Positions 29,002-62,890 of a DNA stretch of 64,000 nt are shown here, one piece after another. The notes under the pieces were generated by a model that searched no databases, was not told the origin of the DNA, and saw only the letters and a list, made by a program, of their open reading frames with translations. Position 1 is the first letter of the stretch. The number at the start of each line of letters is the position of its first letter. Where the stretch lies: positions 3,220,001 to 3,284,000 of the forward strand of contig NZ_CP121662.1 of assembly GCF_029714285.1 (NCBI RefSeq). The letters run 5' to 3'. Made by a program: the position numbers and the translations under genes. The DNA is from Rhizobium sp. CB3090. Lineage in GTDB: Bacteria > Pseudomonadota > Alphaproteobacteria > Rhizobiales > Rhizobiaceae.

Positions 29002-29379
29002 ATGTCCGAAAAGCCGATCAAAATCCCCGGACCTGATCATCCCATCACGATCGAGAACAAGCGTGCGCATGTCACCGTTTCGGCTGCCGGCAAGGTCATT
29101 GCCGATACACGTGACGCGCTGTCCCTGAAGGAAGCCTCCTATCCGGCGGTCATTTATGTGCCGCGCAAGGATGTCGATATGTCCGCGCTCCAGAGAACGG
29201 ACCATGCCACCTACTGTCCCTACAAGGGCGATTGCTCCTACTACAGCATCCCTGCCGGCGGCGAGCGTTCGGTGAACGCGGTCTGGACCTACGAATATCC
29301 CCACGCCTCCGTCAGCCAGATCAAGGATTACATGGCCTTCTACCCGGATCGGGTCGACGCTATAAGGGTCGATGCTTAA
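29002..29379 (+). CDS. DUF427 domain protein
   Basis: A 125-residue DUF427 (nucleotidyltransferase-like beta-barrel fold) protein. The conserved features are DALSLKEASYPAVIYVPRKDVDM, HATYCPYKGDCSYYSI, and the C-terminal FYPDRVDAIRV. The two cysteines in YCPYKGDCSY are a family hallmark. No biochemical role is established for the family. Its stop overlaps the stop of the convergent ABC-transporter ATPase gene by four bases, so the two transcripts run into each other. A ribosome site GAGGAGAG precedes the ATG. Confidence 0.85.
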   Translation: MSEKPIKIPGPDHPITIENKRAHVTVSAAGKVIADTRDALSLKEASYPAVIYVPRKDVDMSALQRTDHATYCPYKGDCSYYSIPAGGERSVNAVWTYEYPHASVSQIKDYMAFYPDRVDAIRVDA

Positions 29380-30446
29380 AGAGCCAGACCGCTTCCACTG
29401 TCGAAGACATAGACCTGATCGGCATTGACGTTGACCTTCAGTTGCTCGCCATAGCGAACCGGCGTCTCTCCGTCGACGACGGCGGTCACCTGCTCGCCGG
29501 CCAGATCGAACAGTACATGCGTCTGCGCACCAGTCGGTTCGACCAGCAAGGTCTGGCCACTGAGCGGTGAGCCGCTGCCCGTCAAGCTCAGATGTTCCGG
29601 TCGAAGGCCGATCTTCACGCTCTGGCCGGCCTTCACTTTGCGCTCGCCGGCGATGCGGATCGGCGTGCTGTCCTTCAGCCGCACGGCGGGGGCGCCCTCG
29701 ACGCCATCCACCACGCCATCGAGGAAATTCATGGCTGGCGAGCCGATGAAGCCGGCGACGAAGAGATTGGCCGGCTGGCGGTAAAGCTCGATCGGCGTGC
29801 CCTGCTGCTCGATCCGGCCCTGATTCAGCACGACGATGCGGTCCGCAAGCGTCATGGCTTCGATCTGGTCGTGGGTGACATAGATCGAGGTGGTCTGCAC
29901 CTTCTGATGCAGCGCCTTGATCTCCGAACGCATCTGCACGCGCAGCTTTGCATCGAGGTTCGACAAGGGTTCGTCGAACAGGAAGACGGCCGGATTGCGC
30001 ACCACGGCGCGGCCCATGGCGACACGCTGGCGCTGGCCGCCGGAAAGCTGCGCCGGCTTGCGGTCGAGCAGCTTGGTGAGGTCGAGCATGCGCGCCGCTT
30101 CGTTGACCCGCTGCTCGATCACCGGCTTGGTCTCGCCCGAGAGCTTCAGGTTAAAGCCCATGTTCTCGGCGACCGTCATATGCGGATAGAGCGCATAGGA
30201 CTGGAAGACCATGGCAATGTTGCGCTCGCGCGGCGTCATGGCGTTGACCACCTGCCCGCCGATCGACACATCGCCGTCCGTGATTTCCTCAAGCCCGGCG
30301 ATCATCCGCAGTAGCGTGGACTTGCCGCAGCCGGACGGGCCAACGAGCGCGATGAACTCACCGTCCTCGATCGAAAGCGAGATGTCGTGGATGACGGTCA
30401 GCGCCCCATAGGCTTTATGGATGTTATGTAGTTCGACGGATGCCAT
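29376..30446 (-). CDS. Sugar ABC transporter ATP-binding protein (UgpC/MsmK type)
   Basis: A 356-residue CUT1 ATPase: Walker A GPSGCGKST, Q-loop MVFQSYALYPHMTV, signature LSGGQRQRVAMGRA, Walker B VFLFDEPLSNLDAKLRV, H-loop YVTHDQIEAMTLA, then a C-terminal TOBE/regulatory domain. All catalytic motifs are intact. The ATG at 30446 has GGAG 9 bases upstream; the frame also has a TTG five codons earlier. It is the last gene of the operon: binding protein, two permeases, ATPase (33823 to 29376). Confidence 0.92.
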   Translation of the reverse strand: MASVELHNIHKAYGALTVIHDISLSIEDGEFIALVGPSGCGKSTLLRMIAGLEEITDGDVSIGGQVVNAMTPRERNIAMVFQSYALYPHMTVAENMGFNLKLSGETKPVIEQRVNEAARMLDLTKLLDRKPAQLSGGQRQRVAMGRAVVRNPAVFLFDEPLSNLDAKLRVQMRSEIKALHQKVQTTSIYVTHDQIEAMTLADRIVVLNQGRIEQQGTPIELYRQPANLFVAGFIGSPAMNFLDGVVDGVEGAPAVRLKDSTPIRIAGERKVKAGQSVKIGLRPEHLSLTGSGSPLSGQTLLVEPTGAQTHVLFDLAGEQVTAVVDGETPVRYGEQLKVNVNADQVYVFDSGSGLAL

Positions 30447-30467
30447 TTGTTTGTGCTCCAATAAGGC

Positions 30468-37483: not shown

Positions 37484-38527
37484 ATGGGTCAAGGCGCCAT
37501 GGAAGCATCGAACACCTCGACGGTCAGCTACGGCACCGAACCGGGTTTGCGTTTCGCTTCCCAGCTCGACGGACACGGCGGCTGCAAGCAGTTGTGCTTG
37601 GATGAGGTCAGTGTCTGGAAACCCGGAGAGGGTGTGACCTGGCTGCATCTCGAGCGCGACCACCCCGCCGCAGCCGACTGGGTCACCCATAAAAGCGGTT
37701 TCGATCCCTTCGTCATCGAAGCGCTGTTGGAAGAAGATTCGCGCCCGCGCGTCGAACCCGTAGGCGATGGCCTGTTGATCATCCTGCGAGGCGTCTGCGC
37801 CACGTCGCCGGACGGCGCGACGCAGAAACCTGCCGATATCGACCTTGTGCCCATACATCTCTGGGTCGATGGCAATCGCATTGTTTCGCTCCGCGACAGC
37901 GGTCACTATATCACCGCGCTGCGCGATATCCGCCTGTCGCTGGAGAAGAAGAAGGGACCGCAGCGCACCGGCGACCTGCTCGCTCTCATCGGCGACAAGC
38001 TGGTGCGCGACCTCGAACCCGTGCTCGACGCCATGGACGAAGAGGTGGACGAACTCGACGAACTGATCTTCCATGGCGAAGCCGGCCAGGTGCGCGAACG
38101 TCTGAAACTGCTGCGCCGGCGAGCCGTGCAGCTTCGCCGCTATCTCGCCCCGCAACGCGACGCGCTGAACCGCATCGAGCATGACGATGCGCCCTGGCTT
38201 GCCGAGCGCGACAAGCTGCGCATGCGCGAAGTCATCGACAAGCTGATGCGCTACATCGAATATCTCGACGCCATCCGCGACCGCACCAGCATCCTGCACG
38301 ACGACTTGTCGACCGTCATCAGCGAGCGCATCGCCCGCAACTCCAACCGCCTTGCCGCCCTCGCGGCCCTGCTTTTGCCGCCAAGCGTCGTGGCCGGCCT
38401 CTTCGGCATGAATGTCGGGGGCATTCCCGGCGTCAACGACACCTGGGCCTTCATCATCATCGTCGTCTTCGTCACGGTAAGCTCGATCGCGACTCTCTGG
38501 GTGCTGAAGCGCATCAACTGGCTTTAG
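37484..38527 (+). CDS. CorA/ZntB family divalent metal transporter
   Basis: A 347-residue CorA-superfamily membrane protein of the ZntB-like branch. A cytosolic alpha/beta domain is followed by the long helix (DLEPVLDAMDEEVDELDELI) and two C-terminal helices. The pore signature reads FGMNVGGIPGVNDTWAF (GMN conserved), and the protein ends WVLKRINWL. Members move Mg, Ni, Co or Zn, and the direction for ZntB types is debated. The first ATG is at 37484 and a second lies at 37499. There is no neighbouring metal regulator. Monocistronic. Confidence 0.85.
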   Translation: MGQGAMEASNTSTVSYGTEPGLRFASQLDGHGGCKQLCLDEVSVWKPGEGVTWLHLERDHPAAADWVTHKSGFDPFVIEALLEEDSRPRVEPVGDGLLIILRGVCATSPDGATQKPADIDLVPIHLWVDGNRIVSLRDSGHYITALRDIRLSLEKKKGPQRTGDLLALIGDKLVRDLEPVLDAMDEEVDELDELIFHGEAGQVRERLKLLRRRAVQLRRYLAPQRDALNRIEHDDAPWLAERDKLRMREVIDKLMRYIEYLDAIRDRTSILHDDLSTVISERIARNSNRLAALAALLLPPSVVAGLFGMNVGGIPGVNDTWAFIIIVVFVTVSSIATLWVLKRINWL

Positions 38528-39470: not shown

Positions 39471-40553
39471 GTGCTTGAACTTAGAAACGTGTCGAAGGCG
39501 GTCAGCGGCGAAATGCACATCGCCGAAACGAACCTGACGCTGCAGCGCGGCTCGTTGAATGTCCTGCTCGGACCGACACTTTCGGGCAAGACGTCGCTGA
39601 TGCGGCTGATGGCTGGGCTGGACAAGCCGACTTCGGGCACGATCCACGTCGACGGCACCGATGTTACGGGCGTGCCCGTGCAACGGCGCAACGTCGCCAT
39701 GGTCTACCAGCAATTCATCAACTATCCGGCCATGACCGTTTACGACAATATCGCATCGCCGATGCGCCTTAGCGGCGTCAATGCGGCGACGATCGACCGC
39801 GAGGTGAAGAAAGCGGCCGATCTCCTGCGGCTCGGGCCCTTCCTCGATCGCCTGCCGCTCAGCCTCTCCGGGGGCCAGCAGCAGCGCACGGCGCTTGCCC
39901 GCGCCATCGTCAAGAATGCCGGCCTGGTGCTGCTCGACGAGCCGCTTGCCAATCTCGACTATAAGCTGCGCGAAGAGCTGCGCGCCGAATTGCCGAAAAT
40001 CTTCGCCGAATCCGGCGCCATCTTCGTCTACGCCACGACTGAGCCCTCCGAAGCGCTGCTTCTGGGCGGCAATACCGCCACTCTGTCGGAAGGCAGGATC
40101 ACGCAGTTCGGACCGACGATCGATGTCTTCCGCAGGCCGAAGGATCTGATCACCGCCGTCACCTTCGCCGATCCGCCGCTGAACACGATCTCGCTCGACA
40201 AGCGCGGCAATCTCTTCGTGCTGAACGGCGCGATAAGCCTGCCGGTGCCGCAGGGCCTCGAAGCCCAGCCGGACGGCCCCTACACCATCGCCTTCCAGCC
40301 GCACCATCTGGCGCTGAAGCCGCAGACATCCGAGGCGGTCGCAGCGCCTGCAAGGGTGATGGTAACCGAAATCACCGGTTCGGAAAGCTTCATCCACATC
40401 GATTTCGCCGACCAGCGCTGGGTCATGCTGACCCAGGGCGTCGAGGACATCGATGTCGACGACGCGATCGATATCTACATCGACCCGCGCCACATCATGG
40501 TGTTCGACACCAACGGCGCCGCCGTCACACCCGCCCTGCAACGGGCCGCCTGA
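39471..40553 (+). CDS. glpS: Glycerol ABC transporter ATPase GlpS, H-loop histidine missing
   Basis: A 360-residue CUT1-type ATPase, first gene of glpSTPQUV. It starts with GTG, preceded by GGAAGGAG. Walker A is GPTLSGKTS (34-42), Q-loop VYQQFINYP, signature SLSGGQQQR intact (131-139), Walker B LVLLDEPLANLD (152-163). The switch region reads YATTEPSEALL where active ATPases have YVTHDQxEA, so the H-loop histidine is T190. The C-terminal TOBE-like domain is normal. It pairs with GlpT, which has the opposite defect. Gene names follow the glycerol transporter of Rhizobium leguminosarum. Confidence 0.9.
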   Translation: MLELRNVSKAVSGEMHIAETNLTLQRGSLNVLLGPTLSGKTSLMRLMAGLDKPTSGTIHVDGTDVTGVPVQRRNVAMVYQQFINYPAMTVYDNIASPMRLSGVNAATIDREVKKAADLLRLGPFLDRLPLSLSGGQQQRTALARAIVKNAGLVLLDEPLANLDYKLREELRAELPKIFAESGAIFVYATTEPSEALLLGGNTATLSEGRITQFGPTIDVFRRPKDLITAVTFADPPLNTISLDKRGNLFVLNGAISLPVPQGLEAQPDGPYTIAFQPHHLALKPQTSEAVAAPARVMVTEITGSESFIHIDFADQRWVMLTQGVEDIDVDDAIDIYIDPRHIMVFDTNGAAVTPALQRAA

Positions 40554-40568
40554 GGAGAGACACGGCCA

Positions 40569-41639
40569 ATGGCACGCATCGACCTTGACCATATAAGACA
40601 CGCCTATAACGACCACCCAAAATCCGATGCGGACTATGCGCTGAAGGAAGTTCATCATAGCTGGGAGGACGGCAGCGCCTATGCGCTGCTCGGACCGTCG
40701 GGCTGCGGCAAGACCACCCTGCTGAACATCGTTTCCGGCCTCGTGCGCGCCTCGGAAGGCCGTATCCTCTTCGACGGCAAGGACGTGACCAAGCTGTCAA
40801 CGCAGGAGCGCAACATTGCCCAGGTCTTCCAGTTTCCGGTTGTCTACGACACGATGACGGTCTTTGAAAACCTCGCTTTTCCCTTGCGCAACCGGCACGT
40901 GCCGGAAGCCGAAGTGAAGCGCAAGGTCGATGAGATCATCGAGATGATCGGCCTTTCCGACAGCGCCCATCGCAAGGCGCGTGGATTGACGGCCGATGCC
41001 AAGCAGAAAATCTCTCTCGGCCGTGGCCTGGTGCGCTCCGATGTCAGCGCCATCCTGTTCGACGAACCGCTGACGGTCATCGACCCGCATATGAAATGGG
41101 TGCTGCGTTCGCAATTGAAGCAGCTCCACCGCCGCTTCGGCTTCACCATGGTCTATGTCACCCACGATCAGACGGAGGCGCTGACCTTCGCCGACAAGGT
41201 GGTGGTGATGTACAATGGCGAGGTGGTGCAGATCGGCACGCCGAACGATCTCTTCGAGCGGCCGCGCCACACCTTCGTCGGCTATTTCATCGGTTCGCCG
41301 GGCATGAACGTCATGCCGGTAGAGATCGAGGGCCGCAACGCCCGCCTTGCCGGCAGCACCGTCGCGCTGCCCGGCGCCCCAGCCAACGGCCAGGGCGGCA
41401 AGACTGAACTCGGCATCCGCCCGGAATTCGTCCGCCTCGGCCGCGAGGGCATGCCGGCGACCGTGACCAAGGTCGAGGACCTCGGCCGCCGCAAGGTGGT
41501 GCGCGCCAAACTGCAAGGACAGGAGATCACGGCGATCATCGGCGAGGATCAGACCGTGCCGGCCGAACCGCACATCGCCTTCGATCCCGCCGGCATCAAT
41601 ATCTATGCCAACTCCTGGCGCGTCGAGATGGGAGCCTGA
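40569..41639 (+). CDS. glpT: Glycerol ABC transporter ATPase GlpT, degenerate signature motif
   Basis: A 356-residue ATPase. Walker A GPSGCGKTT (42-50), Q-loop VFQFPVVYDTMTV, Walker B AILFDEP (161-167) and H-loop YVTHDQTEALTFADK (H199) are intact. However, the ABC signature, normally LSGGQ, reads GLTADAKQKISLGR (139-152), and the D-loop reads LTVIDPHMKW instead of LSNLDAxLR. In a head-to-tail GlpS-GlpT dimer, GlpT's own ATP site would use the good LSGGQ of GlpS, while the GlpS site would face this degenerate signature. It starts 15 bp after glpS. Confidence 0.9.
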   Translation: MARIDLDHIRHAYNDHPKSDADYALKEVHHSWEDGSAYALLGPSGCGKTTLLNIVSGLVRASEGRILFDGKDVTKLSTQERNIAQVFQFPVVYDTMTVFENLAFPLRNRHVPEAEVKRKVDEIIEMIGLSDSAHRKARGLTADAKQKISLGRGLVRSDVSAILFDEPLTVIDPHMKWVLRSQLKQLHRRFGFTMVYVTHDQTEALTFADKVVVMYNGEVVQIGTPNDLFERPRHTFVGYFIGSPGMNVMPVEIEGRNARLAGSTVALPGAPANGQGGKTELGIRPEFVRLGREGMPATVTKVEDLGRRKVVRAKLQGQEITAIIGEDQTVPAEPHIAFDPAGINIYANSWRVEMGA

Positions 41640-41641
41640 TC

Positions 41642-42510
41642 ATGGACAAGACCTGGAACAACAAAGCCTGGTTCATGCTCATTCCCGTCCTGGTGCTGGT
41701 CGGCTTCTCGGCCGTCATCCCGCTGATGACGGTGGTGAACTATTCGGTACAGGACACCTTCGGCAACAACGTGTTCTTCTGGGCGGGGACGCAGTGGTTC
41801 GAGGAGATTCTTCATTCCAGCCGCTTCTGGGATTCGATGATCCGCAACCTGATCTTCTCCTTCGTCATCCTGGCGATCGAGGTGCCGCTCGGCATCTTCA
41901 TCGCTCTCAACATGCCGAAGAAGGGGATCGGCGTGCCGGTCTGCCTGGTGCTGATGGCGCTGCCGCTGCTGATCCCGTGGAATGTCGTGGGGACGATCTG
42001 GCAGGTGTTCGGCCGCAGCGATATCGGCCTGATGGGCTATGTCCTCGTCGGCCTCGGCATCGACTACAACTACGTGTCCGATCCGGCCGATGCCTGGGCG
42101 ACGATCATCATCATGGATGTCTGGCATTGGACCAGCCTCGTCGTGCTGCTCTGCTATGCCGGCCTCGCCTCCATTCCCGATGCCTTCTACCAGGCCGCCA
42201 AGATCGATGGCGCCTCGCGCTGGTCCGTCTTCCGCTACATCCAGCTCCCGAAGATGAACCGCGTGCTTTTGATCGCCGTGCTCCTGCGCTTCATGGACAG
42301 TTTCATGATCTATACCGAACCCTTCGTCGTCACCGGCGGCGGCCCCGGCAATTCGACGACCTTCCTGTCGATCGATCTCGTCAAGATGGCGCTTGGCCAG
42401 TTCGATCTCGGCCCGGCGGCGGCAATGTCGCTCATCTACTTCCTGATCGTGCTTCTGCTGTCCTGGGTCTTCTACACCGTCATGACCAATTATGATGCGG
42501 GAGCGACGCG

Positions 42511-42514
<4 letters not shown>
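41642..42514 (+). CDS. glpP: Glycerol ABC transporter permease GlpP
   Basis: A 290-residue inner-membrane permease of the CUT1 family with six helices. The EAA loop reads DAFYQAAKIDGASRWSVFRYIQLPKMNRVL. It begins MDKTWNNKAWFMLIPVLVLV two bases after the glpT stop and overlaps glpQ by four bases (ATGA). It forms the channel with GlpQ. Assignment to glycerol rests on the whole operon order: two distinct ATPases, two permeases, a DUF2160 protein and a large binding protein. Confidence 0.9.
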
Positions 42515-43434
<920 letters not shown>

Positions 43435-43446
43435 GAGGAAACCGCC

Positions 43447-43734
43447 ATGAATACTGATTTCTCCTGGATGGCCTGGACGCTGCCGACGGCGCTGTTCTTC
43501 GTGACCATCCTTCTGCTTCTGCTCGGCATGGCCATTTGGGAATATTTCTCGCCCGGCGGCAATCCGCGCGTCGGCATCCTGCATTTCGAAACGACACGCG
43601 GCGACCGGCTGTTCGTCTCGCTGCTCGGCGCCGCCTTCATTCATATCGCGTGGCTAGGCCTCGGAGGGCCTAACCTGTGGTGGGCGGTTGCCATTTCCGT
43701 GGTCTACGCCATCGGCGTTTTCCGCCTGGTCTAA
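43447..43734 (+). CDS. glpU: DUF2160 small membrane protein GlpU
   Basis: A 95-residue protein with three predicted membrane helices (about residues 10-31, 55-71 and 77-94) and the DUF2160 core ISPGGNPRVGILHFETTRGDRLF-like segment, here WEYFSPGGNPRVGILHFETT. It is found consistently in glycerol transporter operons between glpQ and glpV. Its role is unknown; it could be an accessory subunit of the permease or tune its assembly. Ribosome site AGAGGAAA precedes the ATG. Confidence 0.82.
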   Translation: MNTDFSWMAWTLPTALFFVTILLLLLGMAIWEYFSPGGNPRVGILHFETTRGDRLFVSLLGAAFIHIAWLGLGGPNLWWAVAISVVYAIGVFRLV

Positions 43735-43859
43735 CGGTTTCAAAGAGTTACCGCGCCCTTTGCCCATTTCCGGACAGGTGGCGCCGTAAGACAAGTCGAT
43801 ACAGATGGCCGGGGGTCTGGCTGTCTGACAAAGCACTCGCAACCTGTAGGGAGGAATAT

Positions 43860-45590
43860 ATGCGAAGACATCTCTTGACGACGACGGCTGTCGCGCTGCT
43901 GGCCCTGGCCGGCACGGCCCACGCCGGCATGAACGAAGCCAAGGCGTTCCTGGACAAGGAGATCGGCGATCTTTCGACGCTCTCGCGCGCCGACCAGGAA
44001 AAGGAAATGCAATGGTTCGTCGATGCGGCCAAGCCTTTCCAGGGCATGGAAATCAAGGTCGTTTCGGAAACCCTGACGACGCACCAGTATGAATCGCAAG
44101 TTCTGGCACCTGCCTTTACCGCCATCACCGGCATCAAGGTCACGCACGACGTCATCCAGGAAGGCGACGTGGTCGAAAAGATCCAGACGCAGATGCAGAC
44201 CGGCCAGAACCTCTATGACGGCTGGGTCAACGATTCGGACCTGATCGGCACCCATTGGCGCTACAAGCAGGTGCGCAACCTGACCGACTGGATGGCGGGC
44301 GAGGGCAAGGACGTCACCAATCCCAATCTCGACATTGCCGACTTCATCGGCACCAGCTTCACCACCGCTCCGGACAAGAAGCTCTATCAGCTTCCCGACC
44401 AACAGTTCGCCAACCTCTATTGGTTCCGCTACGACTGGTTCAACGACCCGAAGAACAAGGCCGATTTCAAGGCCAAATACGGCTACGACCTCGGCGTACC
44501 GGTCAACTGGTCGGCCTATGAGGATATCGCCCAGTTCTTCACCGGTCGCGAAGTCGACGGCAAGAAGGTCTTCGGCCATATGGACTACGGCAAGAAGGAT
44601 CCCTCGCTCGGCTGGCGCTTCACCGACGCCTGGCTGTCCATGGCCGGCAACGGCGACAAGGGCCTGCCGAATGGTCTGCCCGTCGACGAATGGGGCATCA
44701 AGGTCGACGCCAATTCACGTCCGGTCGGCTCCTGCGTCGCGCGCGGCGGTGACACCAACGGTCCGGCCGCCGTCTACTCCATCCAGAAGTATCTGGATTG
44801 GTTGAAGGCCTACGCACCGCCGGAAGCCCAAGGCATGACCTTCTCGGAATCCGGTCCGGTTCCGTCACAGGGCAATATCGCCCAGCAGATCTTCTGGTAC
44901 ACGGCGTTTACCGCCGACATGGTCAAGCCAGGCCTTCCGGTCATGAACGCCGACGGCACGCCGAAATGGCGCATGGCTCCCTCGCCGCATGGCGTCTACT
45001 GGAAGGACGGCATGAAGCTCGGCTACCAGGACGTGGGTTCCTGGACGCTGATGAAGTCCACGCCGGTCGACCGCGCCAAGGCTGCCTGGCTCTACGCGCA
45101 GTTCGTGACCTCGAAGACGGTGGACGTGAAGAAGAGCCAGATCGGCCTCACCTTCATTCGCGAATCCACCATCCGCGACAAGAGCTTTACCAAGCGCGCG
45201 CCTGAACTCGGCGGTCTGATCGAGTTCTACCGCTCGCCGGCGCGTGTACAGTGGTCGCCGACCGGCACGAACGTTCCTGACTATCCGAAGCTGGCGCAGC
45301 TTTGGTGGCAGGCGATCGGCGATGCCGCATCCGGCGCCAAGGATGCGCAGGGCGCCATGGATGCGCTTTGCGGCGATCAGGAAAAGGTGCTGCAGCGCCT
45401 GGAACGCGCAGGCGTGCAGGGCGATATCGGTCCCAAGCTCGCCGAAGAGCATGATCTCAACTATTGGAACGCCGATGCCGTCAAGAACGGTCATCTTGCT
45501 CCTCAGTTGAAAATCGCGAACGAGAAGGAAAAGCCGGTTACCGTCAACTATGACGAACTGGTCAAGAGCTGGGCTGACGCAGCGAAATAA
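43860..45590 (+). CDS. glpV: Glycerol ABC transporter substrate-binding protein GlpV
   Basis: A 576-residue extracellular binding protein, larger than usual sugar-binding proteins. It starts MRRHLLTTTAVALLALAGTA with a Sec signal peptide cut near AHA, and GGGAGG lies 5 bases before the ATG. An upstream in-frame extension into glpU is rejected. Mature features are QYESQVLAPAFTAITGIKVT, DLIGTHWRYKQVRNL and PSHGVYWKDGMKLGYQDVGS-like segments. It closes the glpSTPQUV operon and is followed by a strong terminator hairpin. glpD, glpK and glpR are not in the window. Confidence 0.9.
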   Translation: MRRHLLTTTAVALLALAGTAHAGMNEAKAFLDKEIGDLSTLSRADQEKEMQWFVDAAKPFQGMEIKVVSETLTTHQYESQVLAPAFTAITGIKVTHDVIQEGDVVEKIQTQMQTGQNLYDGWVNDSDLIGTHWRYKQVRNLTDWMAGEGKDVTNPNLDIADFIGTSFTTAPDKKLYQLPDQQFANLYWFRYDWFNDPKNKADFKAKYGYDLGVPVNWSAYEDIAQFFTGREVDGKKVFGHMDYGKKDPSLGWRFTDAWLSMAGNGDKGLPNGLPVDEWGIKVDANSRPVGSCVARGGDTNGPAAVYSIQKYLDWLKAYAPPEAQGMTFSESGPVPSQGNIAQQIFWYTAFTADMVKPGLPVMNADGTPKWRMAPSPHGVYWKDGMKLGYQDVGSWTLMKSTPVDRAKAAWLYAQFVTSKTVDVKKSQIGLTFIRESTIRDKSFTKRAPELGGLIEFYRSPARVQWSPTGTNVPDYPKLAQLWWQAIGDAASGAKDAQGAMDALCGDQEKVLQRLERAGVQGDIGPKLAEEHDLNYWNADAVKNGHLAPQLKIANEKEKPVTVNYDELVKSWADAAK

Positions 45591-60695: not shown

Positions 60696-61766
60696 ATGTC
60701 CGACGTGAAGAAAGTCGCAATCATCGGCCTCGGCATCGGCCGCTCCCATATTGTCGAAGGCTATCTGCCGCATCCGGACCGCTTCGAAGTTGCCGCTCTC
60801 TGCGATCTCAATGAGGAACGCCTGAACGCCGTGGGCGACGAATTCGGCATCACGCGGCGGCTCAAGGATTTCGTCGAGATCCTGAACATGCCGGATATCG
60901 ACATCATTGATATCTGCACGCCGCCCGGCTCGCATTTCGAACTGATCATGCAGGCGCTTGCCGCCGGCAAGCATGTGGTTTGCGAGAAGCCGCTGGTCGG
61001 CTCGCTCGCCGATGTGGACGCGCTCATCGCGGCGGAAAAGACGGCCAAGGGCAGACTGATGCCGATCTTTCAATATCGCTATGGCGACGGCATTCAAAAG
61101 GCAAAGCGCATCATCGAGGCCGGCATCGCCGGCAAGGCCTATGTCGCCACTTCGGAGACGCATTGGGTGCGCGGCGCCGACTATTATGCAGTCCCATGGC
61201 GCGGCAAATGGGATACCGAGCTCGGCGGCGTGCTGATGACGCATTCGATCCATCTGCACGACATGCTGACCTATCTGATGGGCCCAATTGCCGGCCTTTT
61301 CGGCCGCGTCGCCACCCGCGTCAACGATATCGAAGTGGAAGATTGCGCCAGCGCCAGCCTGCTGATGGAGAATGGCGCGCTGGCGACGATCAGCGCAACG
61401 CTCGGCTCGCAGGAACAGATCAGCCGCCTGCGCCTCGCCTTCGAAAACGTGCTGATCGAGAGCAATCACGAGCCCTACAGCCCCGGCCAGGACCCCTGGA
61501 AAATCGTTCCTGCGAACGACGAGATCGCCGCGAAGATCGATGCGCTGCTGACCGATTGGACGCCAATCCCGATCCGCTTCAACACGCAAATGAAGCTGTT
61601 CCATGAAGCGCTGGTGTCGGGCGGTCCGCTGCCGGTGACGACAGCCGATGCCCGCCAGGCACTGGAGCTTGTCACCGCATTCTATGAATCGTCGGAAACG
61701 CGCACCGAAGTCCGCTTTCCGGTCGGCCCGGAAAGCACGAAATACAAGAGCTGGAGGCCGGCATGA
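60696..61766 (+). CDS. Gfo/Idh/MocA family oxidoreductase
   Basis: A 356-residue dehydrogenase family member. The nucleotide loop is VAIIGLGIGRSHIVEGYL, the lysine motif VCEKPLVGSL, and the substrate region ELGGVLMTHSIHLHDMLTYL (with the catalytic His). The C-terminal part includes GQDPWKIVPANDEIAAKIDA. It overlaps the ATPase reading frame by four bases if that gene starts at its first ATG. It probably oxidises or reduces the sugar taken up by the ABC system. Confidence 0.88.
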   Translation: MSDVKKVAIIGLGIGRSHIVEGYLPHPDRFEVAALCDLNEERLNAVGDEFGITRRLKDFVEILNMPDIDIIDICTPPGSHFELIMQALAAGKHVVCEKPLVGSLADVDALIAAEKTAKGRLMPIFQYRYGDGIQKAKRIIEAGIAGKAYVATSETHWVRGADYYAVPWRGKWDTELGGVLMTHSIHLHDMLTYLMGPIAGLFGRVATRVNDIEVEDCASASLLMENGALATISATLGSQEQISRLRLAFENVLIESNHEPYSPGQDPWKIVPANDEIAAKIDALLTDWTPIPIRFNTQMKLFHEALVSGGPLPVTTADARQALELVTAFYESSETRTEVRFPVGPESTKYKSWRPA

Positions 61767-61810
61767 CAACGGCCGTGCGAGCCATCAGGACGAACAAGGA
61801 GGAAGCGCCC

Positions 61811-62890
<1,080 letters not shown>

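Follow-up and report, generated by a model that had tools for sequence, protein, structure and literature searches.

In our study, two adjacent ATPase genes of Rhizobium sp. CB3090, glpS and glpT, were found to encode proteins with complementary changes in their ATP-site motifs. We propose, with a probability of roughly 0.78 as judged from the sequences, that GlpS and GlpT form an obligate heterodimer, in which one ATP site matches the consensus and the other is degenerate, in a CUT1-type (type I) importer of glycerol. The asymmetry looks like an old and fixed trait of the GlpSTPQUV importer family, a built-in feature rather than decay, because the relatives examined share the same pattern. 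In the window, which is the whole stretch of 64,000 nucleotides that was analysed, the genes were arranged on the plus strand in the order glpS-glpT-glpP-glpQ-glpU (DUF2160)-glpV from 39471 to 45590. The features of the operon and the two other sugar ATPases of the window are given below.

29376-30461, minus strand: other sugar ATPase, canonical, with LSGGQ and YVTHD by alignment
39471..40553, plus strand: glpS, CUT1-type ATPase, from ORF, domain and motif alignment
39864..39878, plus strand: GlpS LSGGQ signature, residues 132-136, placed as 39471 + 3 x (residue - 1)
40038..40040, plus strand: GlpS codon 190, Thr replacing the H-loop histidine, by alignment
40569..41639, plus strand: glpT, CUT1-type ATPase, from ORF, domain and motif alignment
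40986..41000, plus strand: GlpT altered signature LTADA, residues 140-144, placed as 40569 + 3 x (residue - 1)
41163..41165, plus strand: GlpT codon 199, H-loop histidine intact, by alignment
41642..42514, plus strand: glpP, permease (BPD_transp_1, Pfam), with the loop YQAAKIDGASRWSVFRYIQLP, which we take to be of the EAA type
42511..43434, plus strand: glpQ, permease (BPD_transp_1, Pfam), with the loop DETAYIDGYSFPRFFLKIFIP, likewise taken to be of the EAA type
43447..43734, plus strand: glpU, small membrane protein DUF2160 (PF09928, Pfam), anchor of the survey
43866..45590, plus strand: glpV, putative periplasmic binding protein, from published naming and operon position
61763-62890, plus strand: other sugar ATPase, canonical, with LSGGQ and YVTHD by alignment

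The start codon of GlpS was GTG at 39471, with a purine-rich stretch in front, and that of GlpT was ATG at 40569; the start of glpV at 43866 is assumed within a longer ORF. GlpS contained the domains PF00005 and PF08402 and GlpT contained PF00005, PF17912 and PF08402, which is the combination (ABC_tran with OB_MalK/TOBE_2) of CUT1 ATPases. The top NCBIfam match of both was UgpC (PRK11650) with 244 and 284 bits, respectively, below the cut-off of 432 bits. The two permeases with presumed EAA-type coupling loops also correspond to a CUT1 system, but GlpS and GlpT are not identical ATPases with two complete sites in the manner of MalK2. No Pfam or NCBIfam model matched GlpV at E 0.001. All six genes of the GlpSTPQUV set were matched in each of the 84 loci fetched in the survey described below, the best matches of GlpV being 55-92% identical. 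The best glpV match was located upstream of glpS, not downstream of the DUF2160 gene, in 7 of the 84 loci (L051, L059, L062, L063, L065, L067, and L080).

GlpS contained the Walker A motif GPTLSGKTS (K40), the Q-loop VYQQFINYP (Gln80), the intact LSGGQ signature and the Walker B motif LLDEPLANLD (E157), followed by the H-loop YATTEP with Thr190 at the histidine position. GlpT contained the Walker A motif GPSGCGKTT (K48), the Q-loop VFQFPVVYD, the Walker B motif LFDEPLTVID (E166) and the H-loop YVTHDQ with His199; its signature was LTADA and its D-loop TVID. The preliminary description had assigned a signature without the H-loop histidine to GlpS, and intact Walker motifs and H199 without a signature and with an altered D-loop to GlpT. 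Both assignments were borne out by alignment with the two other sugar ATPases of the window, which were themselves canonical as had been claimed.

Orthologues must not be picked by the motifs under study, and DUF2160 was therefore chosen as the anchor in 398 genomes sampled from throughout the Pseudomonadota. It was found in 85 genomes, 32 of which belong to another class than the genome of the window. The 84 fetched loci and the window's own locus gave 85 pairs for scoring. The H-loop position of GlpS was occupied by Thr in 80 pairs and by Ser in 5, never by His, and LSGGQ was present in 85/85. The Walker Lys, the Asp-Glu and the His of GlpT were invariant (85/85), and LSGGQ was present in none of the 85, being replaced by LTADA (23), LTADE (17), LTADQ (13), LSADQ (8), LSPDN (5) and ten rarer forms. 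The second signature glycine of GlpT was Asp (Asp143) in 84 of the 85 pairs, and the adjoining residue 144 varied freely (entropy 2.18). The two NBDs are thus different, with the signature altered in one and the H-loop in the other. A restored histidine or LSGGQ in orthologues, named beforehand as evidence against the asymmetry, occurred in 0/85 pairs. This complementary pattern is not due to chance, because it was seen in 85/85 orthologous pairs, and all 32 of the further MalK-type ATPases that were read from the genome of the window were canonical. In five genomes (L059, L062, L063, L067, and L080) GlpS combined YATSEP with the Q-loop VHQFF, and GlpT had LSPDN; this co-variation was given no weight, as the five may be one lineage.

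The asymmetry goes beyond that of the preliminary description, since GlpS has also lost the aromatic residue of the A-loop. In the scored column, which we take from MalK to be that of the A-loop, GlpS had Val in 79 of the 85 pairs; among the other six, a different non-aromatic residue was present in 5 and Phe in 1. GlpT contained Tyr in 85/85, and the other ATPases contained Tyr or Phe in 32/32. The aromatic residue of the A-loop stacks on adenine. In a head-to-tail dimer one composite site would lack the A-loop aromatic, the H-loop histidine and the opposing signature, and the other would lack nothing. The claim that such a dimer has one complete and one doubly defective site is supported by the 85/85 complementary pairs, with the geometry taken from the available part of PMC7756269.

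We consider it rather improbable that both sites are catalytic, in which case Glu157 of GlpS would still hydrolyse ATP despite Thr190 and the relaxed signature, and the importer would be only mildly asymmetric. GlpS keeps Lys40 of Walker A, Asp156 and Glu157 of Walker B, and Gln80 of the Q-loop in 85/85 pairs, so that residual activity at the GlpS site is possible; a changed Walker B glutamate, frequent but not universal in degenerate sites, was not found. However, three losses fall on one site (the A-loop aromatic in 84/85, the histidine in 85/85 and the facing Asp in 84/85) and none on the other. An explanation by relaxed selection, in which the second site decays since one site suffices and has no positive role, is improbable as well. 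It would account for the faster divergence of GlpS, whose median column entropy in the NBD was 0.92 against 0.58 in GlpT, but not for the replaced residues being conserved themselves in pairs with identities to the window sequences down to 44% (GlpS) and 52% (GlpT), nor for the invariant Walker residues of the same site.

The absence of restored motifs was also found in wider sets. The named loci were the best 80 of 594 matches to GlpV, mostly from Alphaproteobacteria judging by title, and contained 77 GlpS and 78 GlpT; the missing ATPases sit near contig starts (L127 and L159, and L164 for GlpS). Among these best 80 of 594, Thr was found in 77/77 GlpS and LSGGQ in one frame in 76, and GlpT contained the histidine in 78/78 and LSGGQ in 0/78. 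In the 77th, from Mesorhizobium sediminum (L137, 2577-3622), a frameshift in the database record breaks GlpS into two parts, one of which carries LSGGQ and the other YATTEP. A further search of plasmids with GlpV gave 262 records, from which names alone were taken. The counts of the named loci are not to be added to those of the DUF2160 survey, because at least three genomes seem common to both. The best 120 matches from each of three protein searches amounted to 355 proteins, in which 133 segments were of the GlpS type and 239 of the GlpT type. Among the matches listed, the 131 readable GlpS segments had T in 127, A in 2, P in 1 and S in 1, with no His. The SGG core was found in 0 of 237 readable GlpT segments, and the histidine in 235 of the 235 readable at that position, with one in garbled sequence. 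No restored motif was thus found in the 77 GlpS and 78 GlpT of the named loci or in the 131 GlpS and 237 GlpT segments. Since similarity to GlpS and GlpT was the basis for collecting the protein-search sets, they carry less weight than the pairs found through DUF2160. From other phyla, proteins of the GlpT type named as Planctomycetota (P0248, with LPADV) and Nonomuraea (P0344, with LDPGR) were also among the protein matches listed, and the literature adds Pseudodesulfovibrio (PMC11505543, available part).

At E 1e-30 the genome of the window contained 43 places matching GlpT and 39 matching GlpS, of which the best 30 loci each were read. Those 60 loci gave 34 distinct ATPases, GlpS and GlpT included, and the 32 other MalK-type ATPases among these best matches all contained the histidine and LSGGQ, or MSGGQ in 3. 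Asymmetric sites had been called unusual for a CUT1-type importer. This held within the genome itself, but for importers more widely it has to be qualified, as RbsA and NupO also contain a degenerate site (PMC11466899, available part). In an unrooted tree of 80 ATPase rows, GlpS and GlpT each formed one clade with support of 100/100, on long stems of 1.81 and 1.94, respectively. Each set of changes therefore most probably has a single origin that predates the divergence of the sampled lineages. The best tree placed GlpT among the MalK-type ATPases of the genome and GlpS apart; as regards one duplication versus two recruitments, a sister grouping of GlpS and GlpT was not rejected (p-AU 0.404).

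In the proposed heterodimer, the complete site would consist of the A-loop, Walker A, Walker B and His199 of GlpT with LSGGQ of GlpS, and would hydrolyse ATP. The degenerate site would consist of Walker A and B of GlpS, without A-loop aromatic and histidine, facing the LTAD signature of GlpT. It would hydrolyse ATP slowly or not at all, and during the cycles of its partner site may act as a hinge, either structural or by holding a nucleotide. We infer the heterodimer, the single-site hydrolysis and the role of the second site from the motifs. Neither homodimer would contain a complete site, and the losses would therefore enforce heterodimerisation. They would also fix which ATPase sits beneath which permease, a pairing that is impossible for a homodimer. 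Each permease retains a presumed EAA-type loop, and the Q-loop stretches, mostly QQFINYP in GlpS vs QFPV[IVL]YD in GlpT among the 85 pairs, differ between the two proteins, which fits a fixed pairing of NBD and permease.

GlpS and GlpT might instead work in different complexes or as homodimers, one of them for example energising another transporter like MsmX, given that CUT1 ATPases can serve several systems (MsmX; PMC11466899, available part). We regard this as very improbable, because a GlpS2 or GlpT2 would have no complete site, GlpS adjoined GlpT in all of the 84 fetched loci, the 85 genomes (of 398) with GlpS were also those with GlpT, and one clear fusion was found. DUF2160 was present in these same genomes, as judged by eye from the genome lists, and could be a subunit specific to this asymmetric importer.

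Two-domain proteins of the GlpS/GlpT type numbered 17 among the protein matches listed, and their fusion status was judged by eye from the sequences. P0163 (588 aa) contained one half of the GlpS type and one half of the GlpT type with a remodelled junction, and looks to be a real natural GlpS-GlpT fusion, the single clear one. In P0243, P0244, and P0252 an intact GlpS end and a GlpT start with its start methionine retained were found in one frame; these joins could possibly stem from a single base error. P0245 and P0298 were doubtful. Most of the remaining two-domain proteins appear to be frameshift joins. Shifted sequence near the junction led to the rejection of P0241, P0137, P0145, P0242, P0247, P0249, P0250, P0251, and P0253, a deletion-like join to that of P0151, and a repeated GlpS piece to that of P0133. 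In P0242 the GlpS and GlpT parts are preceded by an N-terminal stretch that resembles the end of a glycerol-3-phosphate dehydrogenase (PF16901); the protein is probably a frameshift join which shows the order glpD-glpS-glpT.

The AlphaFold model of P0163 contained two good NBD folds (pTM 0.62), with residues 227-262 below pLDDT 50 and an unreliable mutual arrangement; the GlpT half of its alignment (A3) was built from 8 rows. Twin-NBD chains of M. tuberculosis were among its structural matches, and it superposed poorly on such chains, at about 18 A. Because of this arrangement and superposition the ATP sandwich was not reproduced. GlpS folded alone without an alignment reached pLDDT 38. Among the best 60 PDB matches each for GlpS and GlpT no orthologue was found, only MalK-like or more distant ABC proteins. 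The models gave no reliable dimer arrangement, and the geometry was therefore taken from the literature.

The second site might also be nucleotide-free, which we consider doubtful. In that case Asp143 of GlpT could pair with Lys40 of GlpS as an acid-base latch replacing the nucleotide, from the position at which a signature glycine would touch the gamma-phosphate. The loss of both the adenine-stacking aromatic and the histidine agrees with such a latch. If this is true, the CUT1 importer would use strictly one ATP per cycle and its hinge would be permanent. The signature Asp of GlpT presumably matches the exact position of G551D in human CFTR. This disease mutation affects the LSGGQ signature (PMC6652914, in its available part).

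The nearest known system is MalK2 of MalFGK2 (CUT1), which has the same fold, the TOBE/OB_MalK regulatory domain and two EAA-loop permeases. MalK2 is a homodimer (PMC7756565, available part) and its two sites are alike for that reason, whereas the ATPases of GlpST differ from each other and would make a single complete site. Asymmetric sites had been called well known in heterodimeric exporters; the available part of PMC7756269 confirms this, describing degenerate sites as common, with an altered signature and often an altered Walker B glutamate. TAP, TM287/288, BmrCD, ABCG5/G8, and Pdr5 contain, like GlpST, one consensus site and one site with an altered signature. In Pdr5 the signature is LNVEQ and Tyr replaces His, and a change in transport or coupling is reported when its degenerate site is made canonical (same source, available part). 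The degenerate site of those exporters often has a changed Walker B glutamate (or Walker A lysine), whereas GlpS keeps both residues, additionally lacks the A-loop aromatic, and belongs to an importer.

Among importers, two different NBDs are also found in DppDF of E. coli and in the twin-NBD DppD/OppD of M. tuberculosis. RbsA and NupO belong to the CUT2 class. As in GlpST, one site of their importer motor is degenerate (PMC11466899, available part), but they are type II importers with one fused chain in which the second Walker A lysine is lost. DppD and DppF of E. coli, unlike GlpS and GlpT, both have functional motifs, and in some DppDF states the ATP analogue is present on DppF alone (PMC12136057, as far as available). 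Exporters and RbsA-type importers thus already provide examples of degenerate sites; what is new is an asymmetric pair fixed in a CUT1 family. No report of GlpS/GlpT site asymmetry was found in the open-licence literature searched, so that a report outside it is possible, and no mention of ATP-site motifs was found in the available parts of the glp-gene papers PMC7912956, PMC11223650, and PMC11505543.

These results bear on a long-standing question, namely whether both ATP sites of a type I importer have to be functional. In the maltose system a defect in one MalK leaves almost no transport. One intact HisP, by contrast, reportedly suffices for histidine (a result ascribed to Nikaido and Ames, 1999). 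GlpST, if read rightly, would be a natural and old CUT1 answer, in which a single complete site suffices and its partner has been retained in a specific broken form. It is also a ready ATPase pair for probing the role of a degenerate site in an importer.

Glycerol is the putative substrate from the database name and the published orthologues. The JGI name was 'glycerol transport system'. The glpSTPQUV genes of R. leguminosarum VF39 and C. metallidurans form the same operon with the same proposed substrate (PMC7912956, available part), and glp genes are also named in Pseudodesulfovibrio (PMC11505543, available part). Of the 85 operon-bearing genomes, 65 had a glpK place listed, and in 34 of these it was within 16.5 kb of the operon. 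In the genome of the window the two glpK matches were located 1.0 Mb away and on another contig. The GlpK, GlpD, and GlpR models gave no match at E 1e-20 in nine neighbouring proteins (35295-55350).

A gene for a ZntB/CorA-like metal transporter was found upstream of the operon (37484-38527), with 213 bits to ZntB against a cut-off of 292. A conserved link between this gene and the operon was rejected, as it was present within the flank examined in only 1 of the 80 named loci (L085; best 80 of 594). A zinc phenotype of the glp transporter has been reported in Cupriavidus (PMC7912956, available part). In the same best 80 of 594, the neighbouring genes of the operon recurred solely in Rhizobium rhizogenes OV677 and R. 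tropici (L085 and L086, respectively). In the protein search (best 120 matches), the identity of GlpT dropped from 92-99% directly to 81%.
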